Shown here one piece after another: positions 51,193 to 51,344 of a DNA stretch of 64,000 bases. The position numbers and the translations under genes were made by a program. Below the pieces are notes generated by a model, which was not told where the DNA came from, did not search any database, and saw only the letters and a program-made list of their open reading frames with translations. How positions within the stretch are numbered: the first letter of the stretch is position 1; each line of letters opens with the position of its first letter. Source of the stretch: Sphingopyxis sp. 113P3 (GTDB taxonomy: Bacteria; Pseudomonadota; Alphaproteobacteria; Sphingomonadales; Sphingomonadaceae); the NCBI RefSeq assembly GCF_001278035.1, contig NZ_CP009452.1, positions 2,017,501 through 2,081,500 of the forward strand. The letters are read 5' to 3'.

Positions 51193-51344
51193 GAGTCCCC
51201 GCTGCCACACTACCAGTGGTTGAGTCTTGGCCGCGCGGCGGACTCCATATGTCGTGGCAGACTCCTTTCGTTCTCCTCCCCTTAACCATTTGGACACGCG
51301 GATTCCCTAGAATCCTGAGCTTGACGGCGGCTGTCGCCGGACTC
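51193..51344 (+). promoter_or_regulatory. Cluster of seven GANTC methylation sites upstream of ccrM
   Basis: GANTC occurs at 51193, 51222, 51241, 51260, 51301, 51310 and 51340 (first base of each). Seven sites in 152 bp is far above the roughly one per 300 bp expected at this base composition. They lie in the 217-bp gap before ccrM, whose product methylates GANTC. In Caulobacter the ccrM promoter is sensitive to its own methylation. Confidence 0.8.
51282..51289 (+). promoter_or_regulatory. CtrA half-site before ccrM
   Basis: TTAACCAT at 51282-51289 equals the extended CtrA half-site (TTAACCAT). It lies 93 bp before ccrM inside the GANTC cluster. No second TTAA follows at a 7-bp spacing, so a full box is absent. 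CtrA activates ccrM in Caulobacter, so control is likely but inferred. Confidence 0.5.

Follow-up and report, generated by a model that had tools for sequence, protein, structure and literature searches.

Why should the gene for a DNA methyltransferase be preceded by so many copies of the very sequence that its product modifies? CcrM methylates GANTC, and a reading of the letters alone (the sequence-only reading) had drawn attention to seven GANTC sites within 152 bp in front of ccrM in Sphingopyxis sp. 113P3, accompanied by a CtrA half-site, and had proposed that their density forms a self-sensing element. This locus was followed up in a 64-kb window, meaning the whole stretch of DNA that was analysed, and in the genomes of relatives. 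The gene downstream of the gap is ccrM, as judged from domain and structure matches of its product: PF01555 (231.2 bits) and the RAMA domain PF18755 (65.9 bits) both exceed their cut-offs, and PDB 6pbd, a solved structure of CcrM, matches residues 27-371 at E=9.7e-153. The product stays below the cut-off of 830 for NCBIfam NF050803 (DnaMtaseCcrMCaul), scoring 605.9 bits in an alignment that covers profile positions 2-349 of 350. The nearest named relatives among the best 80 of 595 matches are eight Sphingopyxis loci, 89-94% identical. The seven coordinates first reported all proved exact (GAGTC at 51193 and 51222, GACTC at 51241 and 51260, GATTC at 51301, GAATC at 51310, and GACTC at 51340), TTAACCAT was found again at 51282-51289, and the gap was confirmed to be 217 bp, from the upstream gene's end at 51164 to the ATG at 51382. 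The features of the locus are listed here, with counts referring to 36 distinct Sphingopyxis sequences unless stated otherwise.

50142-51164: upstream neighbour gene, encoding a DUF2804 protein
51193..51226, plus strand: distal unit A, GAGTC (51193), CCACAC (51205-51210) and GAGTC (51222); both sites in 36/36
51230..51234, plus strand: optional distal GANTC position, where strain 113P3 has GCCGC instead; GANTC in 27/36
51241..51273, plus strand: distal unit B, a degenerate inverted copy of A, GACTC (51241), CATATGTCGTG, GACTC (51260) and CTTTCGTTC; sites in 35/36 and 34/36
51282..51289, plus strand: TTAACCAT, resembling a CtrA half-site; TTAAC in 35/36
51301..51314, plus strand: middle pair, GATTC (51301) and GAATC (51310); GANTC in 35/36 and 33/36, with N being A/T and A/G/C
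51321..51326, plus strand: TTGACG, presumed -35 of the ccrM core promoter; TTGAC at the same offset in 39/39 genus rows
51330..51334, plus strand: optional core-promoter GANTC position, at +9, where strain 113P3 has GCTGT instead; GANTC in 26/36
51340..51344, plus strand: core-promoter GACTC, at +19 from TTGAC and beside the presumed -10; in 36/36
51382..52521, plus strand: ccrM, orphan-type GANTC adenine methyltransferase, 379 aa, by domain and structure matches

The genus comparison combined the 30 best-scoring of 80 genomes, one extra locus and the 8 named loci, which in part repeat genomes, to give 39 rows and 36 distinct sequences; start codons in relatives were chosen by script, as the ATG nearest the aligned start. 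In each of the 30 best-scoring loci, 6-10 GANTC precede ccrM within 250 bp, and their distances from the ATG hardly vary; further upstream of these arrays the sequence differs between strains. The notion of an element peculiar to this one copy of the gene had to be given up, as at least seven sites occur in 29 of the 30 loci and at least eight in 28; lacking GANTC at 51230 and 51330, where most of its kin have it, strain 113P3 in fact carries rather fewer sites than they do. From 51193 to the TTGAC at 51321 the 39 loci align free of gaps, and the seven sites, in order, are kept in 36, 36, 35, 34, 35, 33 and 36 of the 36 distinct sequences. Mean variability across these sequences is 0.009 in the 28 GA-TC columns, 0.144 in the 107 flank columns (37 of them invariant), and 0.187 at third codon positions of the gene. 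Selection on GANTC in the ccrM gap is well supported by this comparison of sequences. The GA-TC letters at 51301 and 51310 are kept around a variable N; the remaining five sites have a fixed N within the genus, so a count of sites tells only part of the story. In many of the 30 aligned congeners the sequence directly upstream of the element is different while the element itself is retained.

Such a cluster is exceptional against the background of this genome. The window contains 100 GANTC where dinucleotide shuffles lead one to expect 337.5, meaning that the motif is generally depleted there, and 7 of the 100 fall within the 152 bp. A sample of 40 random 20-kb stretches, amounting to 800 kb of 4.66 Mb with genes located by a simple codon-usage caller, gave a density of 1.52 GANTC per kb, or 2.17 per kb in intergenic gaps 50 bp or longer. 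Among the 342 sampled gaps of that size, the two richest held 7 GANTC (over 624 bp) and 6 (over 377 bp), and none of the 105 gaps of 150-300 bp held more than 3. The unusual density noticed in the sequence-only reading is thereby borne out, since comparable density proved uncommon in intergenic regions and the count is exceptional among sampled gaps of similar size. A chance cluster, or an effect of base composition, has been rejected as an explanation on the basis of the own-genome gap counts, a comparison of pentamers and the conservation within the genus, and we regard its probability as practically negligible. In its favour can be set a single other tight cluster in the 800-kb sample, with nothing else of the kind found there: six GANTC in 104 bp, the only occurrence of the maximum of 6 per 152 bp. 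Against it stand the Poisson probability of 6.8e-7 that a gap of 217 bp holds at least seven GANTC when the density is the intergenic 2.17 per kb, the own-genome control, the conservation of the sites, and the contrast with other pentamers: upstream of ccrM in 59 other genera GANTC averages 5.86 per 250 bp, compared with a composition expectation of 0.87 and with 1.53 for the runner-up among 24 pentamers of like structure. The other cluster lies at about 26010-26113 of the contig, near divergent long ORFs and within the 377-bp gap; as its six sites span only 104 bp, it is locally as tight as the ccrM array.

Beyond the genus, the sites upstream of orthologous ccrM genes are again retained. The family set comprised loci from 60 of 95 other genera and one locus from the class search, giving 61 loci; one genus was excluded for an in-frame stop, and one locus, which yielded no start at the first cut-off, was placed at a relaxed cut-off (E=0.005). 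With one locus per other genus, all 61 have at least two GANTC in the 250 bp upstream and 56 have at least four; the named family loci, which are the best 80 of 595 and overlap with the 61, give 80/80 and 74/80 by the same two measures. Various family genera also carry additional GANTC within the same stretch, outside the common positions. In other families of the order, 4-8 GANTC were counted in 16/16 loci (the best-scoring 16 of 42 matched genomes), and in other orders of the class at least one was present in 23/28 loci and at least three in 21/28 (the best-scoring 28 of 100 matched genomes outside the family), both sets being biased toward nearer relatives because they consist of the best-scoring loci. 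The remaining 5 of these 28 best-scoring class loci lack GANTC in the 250 bp before ccrM. A second genome of one family genus has no GANTC within 300 bp of ccrM and bears the distal element 366-454 bp upstream of the aligned start; the 260 bp adjoining ccrM in that genome look rich in inverted repeats by eye.

The spacing of the sites was also considered. Pair distances of GANTC in the family show a period of about 9.8 bp, with a resultant of 0.52 against a null maximum of 0.117 (a null that ignores shared ancestry) and of 0.064 at 10.5 bp; taken by themselves, the promoter-proximal sites fit 10.9 bp. Peaks fall at 9-11, 19-20, 29, 39, 49 and 68 bp. The best values lie within the null range both in other families of the order (0.170, with a maximum of 0.213) and in the class (0.191, with a maximum of 0.233), and inspection by eye of GANTC pairs in the own genome revealed no comparable peaks. 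As a general rule, helical phasing was not borne out, since the 9.8-bp period of the family is absent in other families and departs from the usual 10.5-bp repeat. The regularity within the family may simply reflect inherited positions.

The upstream part of the array is a distal element of about 90 bp, composed of unit A (GAGTC-CACACC-GAGTC) and unit B (GACTC-AcAT-GtG-GACTC-TTtcGTTC), where B is a degenerate inverted A. The family consensus of unit A reads tGAGTCtTt.g.GcCACACCaC.a.at.T.GAGTC (n=68 stretches selected for GAGTC-N24-GAGTC) and that of unit B GACTCaAcATcttGtg.cGGACTC.TTtcGTTC (n=39 stretches selected for GACTC-N14-GACTC), and the N of the four distal sites is nearly fixed across the family as G, G, C and C. 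A profile of this element, R1, was made from sequence only, using 18 ccrM upstream sequences chosen by pattern, which consequently match it by construction. Searches with R1 scored part of the first-look candidates, namely 150 of 813 in the own genome and, under stricter filters, 28 and 31 per genome in the family and class, so that a second copy, if weak, may have escaped detection. Among the 150 scored in the own genome it found one place, at ccrM (E 1e-17); matches to the opposite strand of the same place occur in many genera, and in the own genome such a match is weak (E 0.345). When the own genome was searched at the plain DNA level for a second copy, a 16-base match was all that emerged. 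In the family R1 matches 131 of 148 genomes and 86 of 96 genera, the other 17 genomes giving no match; across the class it matches 3 of 135 genomes, one of them outside the family. All of the best 60 family places precede the aligned ccrM start, by 89-366 bp, and the element is present in 55 of 60 ccrM loci that each come from a different genus. Among the candidates scored, the distal element is thus almost confined to the family and linked to ccrM. A general regulator would not leave an operator that occurs, as far as scored, at ccrM alone.

The downstream part of the array has the form of a core promoter, which is predicted from its sequence elements: TTGAC followed by GANTC at about +8/9 and +19, an arrangement that appears to recur in other orders of the class. 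TTGAC was found in 67 of 69 family loci, with GANTC at +8/+9 in 42 of the 67 and at +19 in 44. TTGAY together with both GANTC (at +6-11 and +17-21) is present in 21/30 genus, 39/61 family, 11/16 order and 15/28 class loci, and TTGAY with one or both in 30/30, 59/61, 16/16 and 19/28; shuffled sequences gave means of at most 0.02 loci for both GANTC and of 0.56-1.92 loci (maximum 5) for at least one. Strain 113P3 has the +19 core GANTC only. The ccrM core promoter places GANTC within its predicted -35/-10 region, as do GcrA-dependent promoters. A canonical -10 following TTGAC was looked for in the own gap and not found. YGAKTCG, given as the extended motif of GcrA in an excerpt of PMC7987155 that cites Haakonsen 2015, occurs in 23 of 66 family loci and is absent from the 250 bp of the own strain.

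Two further motifs occur upstream of ccrM in part of the family. TTAACCAT, which resembles a CtrA half-site, has 4 occurrences, both strands counted, in the 800-kb sample of the own genome; in 59 other genera TTAACC is present in 22 and TTAACCAT in 17, counted anywhere in 260 bp and on either strand. Compared with the full site, TTAA-N7-TTAA, the CtrA-type site in the own gap is a half-site only. TGTGGATAA, presumably a perfect DnaA box, accompanies the core promoter just downstream of the core GANTC in 34 of 91 distinct family promoters, and in 20 of 59 genera it is no more than 120 bp from the start. This box has no occurrence in the 800 kb sampled from the own genome and none, by eye, in the 217-bp gap. 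Control of ccrM by DnaA may have been added in those genera that have the box.

The self-sensing element of the sequence-only reading can now be judged. To see in this gap an element that senses CcrM is a fair reading, because the count is exceptional, the sites are conserved in front of ccrM orthologs, and conservation is concentrated on the GA-TC letters. It does not stand as one uniform array; rather, there is a core promoter and a separate, distal, operator-like element. We lean towards the view that the gap serves to control ccrM through two modules read by their methylation, providing replication-coupled feedback, with methylation at the locus, the reader and the sign of control being components that we infer. 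The first module would consist of the -35-like TTGAC, then GANTC in the spacer between -35 and -10 and at the edge of the -10; the second would be the distal dyad, in which a pair of GANTC brackets each of the two inverted units. Full methylation of the locus would keep ccrM mostly off. Passage of the replication fork would leave all sites hemi-methylated and permit transcription of ccrM, and newly made CcrM would then re-methylate the region and shut the gene off. Several sites that all need restoration would make the window of expression longer and sharper. Fork passage would come late, because ccrM seems to lie toward the terminus: the GC skew of the chromosome, taken over the 40 stretches and the window, is mostly positive as far as 2.3 Mb and from 2.46 Mb onwards mostly negative, which, as a noisy signal with the origin not located, suggests a position toward the replication terminus for ccrM at 2.07 Mb.

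The reader at the core would probably be GcrA with sigma-70, a gene for GcrA being present in the genome, and that at the dyad some protein or CcrM itself. The sign of control would follow, by analogy, that of another gene in another species: the gcrA promoter region of Agrobacterium, with six GANTC in 250 bp, is less active when methylated (PMC11514494, in excerpt). Among m6A motifs, GANTC is the commonest in Sphingomonas sp. AAP5 (PMC8067484, in excerpt), and it is methylated in Zymomonas (PMC8088579, in excerpt), and a 2014 paper placed ccrM "most probably" among the genes directly affected by GANTC methylation (PMC3973325, in excerpt). More tentatively, and as something we would put forward as a possibility, the distal dyad may be a dedicated one-gene operator, one per genome, by which ccrM reads the methylation of its own promoter through a protein binding the inverted GANTC pairs, possibly CcrM itself; the four sites, re-methylated together, would then act as a built-in delay timer set by passage of the fork near the terminus.

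Three other explanations have to be weighed against this methylation-read feedback. Control might be positive, such that GcrA and sigma-70 need a methylated core GANTC and methylation turns ccrM on, with timing left mainly to CtrA or DnaA. Several observations agree with this: GANTC lies in the -35/-10 interval, where in Caulobacter its presence is linked to a distinct time of activation (PMC4287350, in excerpt), a precedent that serves the feedback model as well; gcrA is encoded in the own genome (contig position 2450948); the want of a good -10 points to an activator; TTAAC is kept in nearly all genus sequences; and a perfect DnaA box stands beside the core promoter in over a third of the distinct family promoters. 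Positive control nevertheless leaves the distal dyad unexplained, and neither YGAKTCG in the own strain's 250 bp nor a DnaA box in its 217-bp gap (by eye) is there to serve it, and we think it rather unlikely. The distal element could instead be the ordinary operator of a dedicated protein whose site happens to contain GAGTC and GACTC, in which case binding would shield these from CcrM, causing local hypomethylation, and methylation would be at most a secondary modulator. The nearly invariant G, G, C and C at N speak for such an operator, as do the symmetry of the inverted units and the conservation of letters outside GANTC, for instance CACAC and GTTC; shielding of GANTC by a bound protein is known for MucR (PMC5172544, in excerpt). 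Indeed, the N fixed at five of the seven genus sites, and nearly fixed at the distal sites of the family, counts against the methylation model, and for the distal sites would fit an operator as well as it fits methylation sites. What an ordinary operator fails to account for is the additional GANTC outside the common positions in various genera, the excess of GANTC over the next pentamer (5.86 against 1.53), and the middle sites, which hold GA-TC despite a variable N; this explanation strikes us as improbable.

The last of the three sees in the conserved block a structured RNA leader, in which GAGTC and GACTC pair as stems, and its probability appears to be very low. The two pentamers are certainly complementary, and a single-sequence fold, run with no shuffle control, pairs parts of the region. 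However, among 51 distinct A2/B1 pairs the flanks show no covariation (the lowest P for any of six positions is 0.085); pairing at N is impossible for the middle pair in at least 30 of the 36 genus sequences, and GANTC is still kept there; a search of 51000-51600 against Rfam gave no match at E up to 1; and the best candidate for a promoter is situated downstream of the block. Methylation-read feedback through two modules remains our preferred reading of the gap. Besides the fixed N, the points that weigh against it are the missing canonical -10, the lack of YGAKTCG in the own strain, the five class loci devoid of nearby GANTC, the 17 family genomes that R1 fails to match, and the making of R1 from ccrM upstream sequences.

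The confinement of CcrM to one part of the cell cycle has been best studied in Caulobacter, and the sites named here are conserved well enough for a clean design of mutants in harmless laboratory sphingomonads. As the sites with a variable N, which resemble free methylation targets, can be told apart from those with a fixed N, which resemble letters of an operator, self-sensing becomes directly testable. The number of sites may sharpen or delay the response, much as the sequence-only reading had proposed a graded or switch-like response to hemi-methylation set by their density.

The ccrM promoter of Caulobacter is activated by CtrA and has two GANTC sites in its leader. Sphingopyxis resembles it in the gene itself, in having GANTC near the start and in a sequence like a CtrA half-site, and differs in that, in place of two leader sites, there are seven, four of them in an upstream element of inverted units and one in a TTGAC core. 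The promoter of gcrA in Agrobacterium is likewise a GANTC-dense regulatory gap in which methylation lowers activity (PMC11514494, in excerpt), but it belongs to a different gene; in Sphingopyxis the dense gap is at ccrM, whereas its own gcrA has one GANTC only in 400 bp upstream, against the six in 250 bp of Agrobacterium. Methylated GcrA/sigma-70 promoters, and promoters with GANTC between -35 and -10, share with ccrM the position of the site in the core promoter (PMC7987155 and PMC4287350, both in excerpt); the former have YGAKTCG, which is lacking from the 250 bp before ccrM in strain 113P3. GANTC-rich ctrA promoters, with up to five sites per 300 bp in Sphingomonadales and six in Caulobacterales, offer another GANTC-rich stretch before a cell-cycle gene, in the same order; the excerpt of that paper (PMC8116508) counts sites for ctrA and holds no analysis of positions or elements. 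Brilli 2010 (PMC2877005) counted GANTC in 500-bp promoters of cell-cycle genes, with no conclusion drawn in the excerpt. No published account of arrays upstream of ccrM in sphingomonads was found among the literature matches listed, supplements aside. What is already known is that GANTC promoters can be controlled by methylation, that those of ctrA (counted) and gcrA (described) can be rich in GANTC, and that methylation control of ccrM has been proposed. What is new, as far as the listed literature matches go, is the core arrangement at ccrM that recurs across orders, together with the distal dyad that is linked to ccrM at the level of the family.
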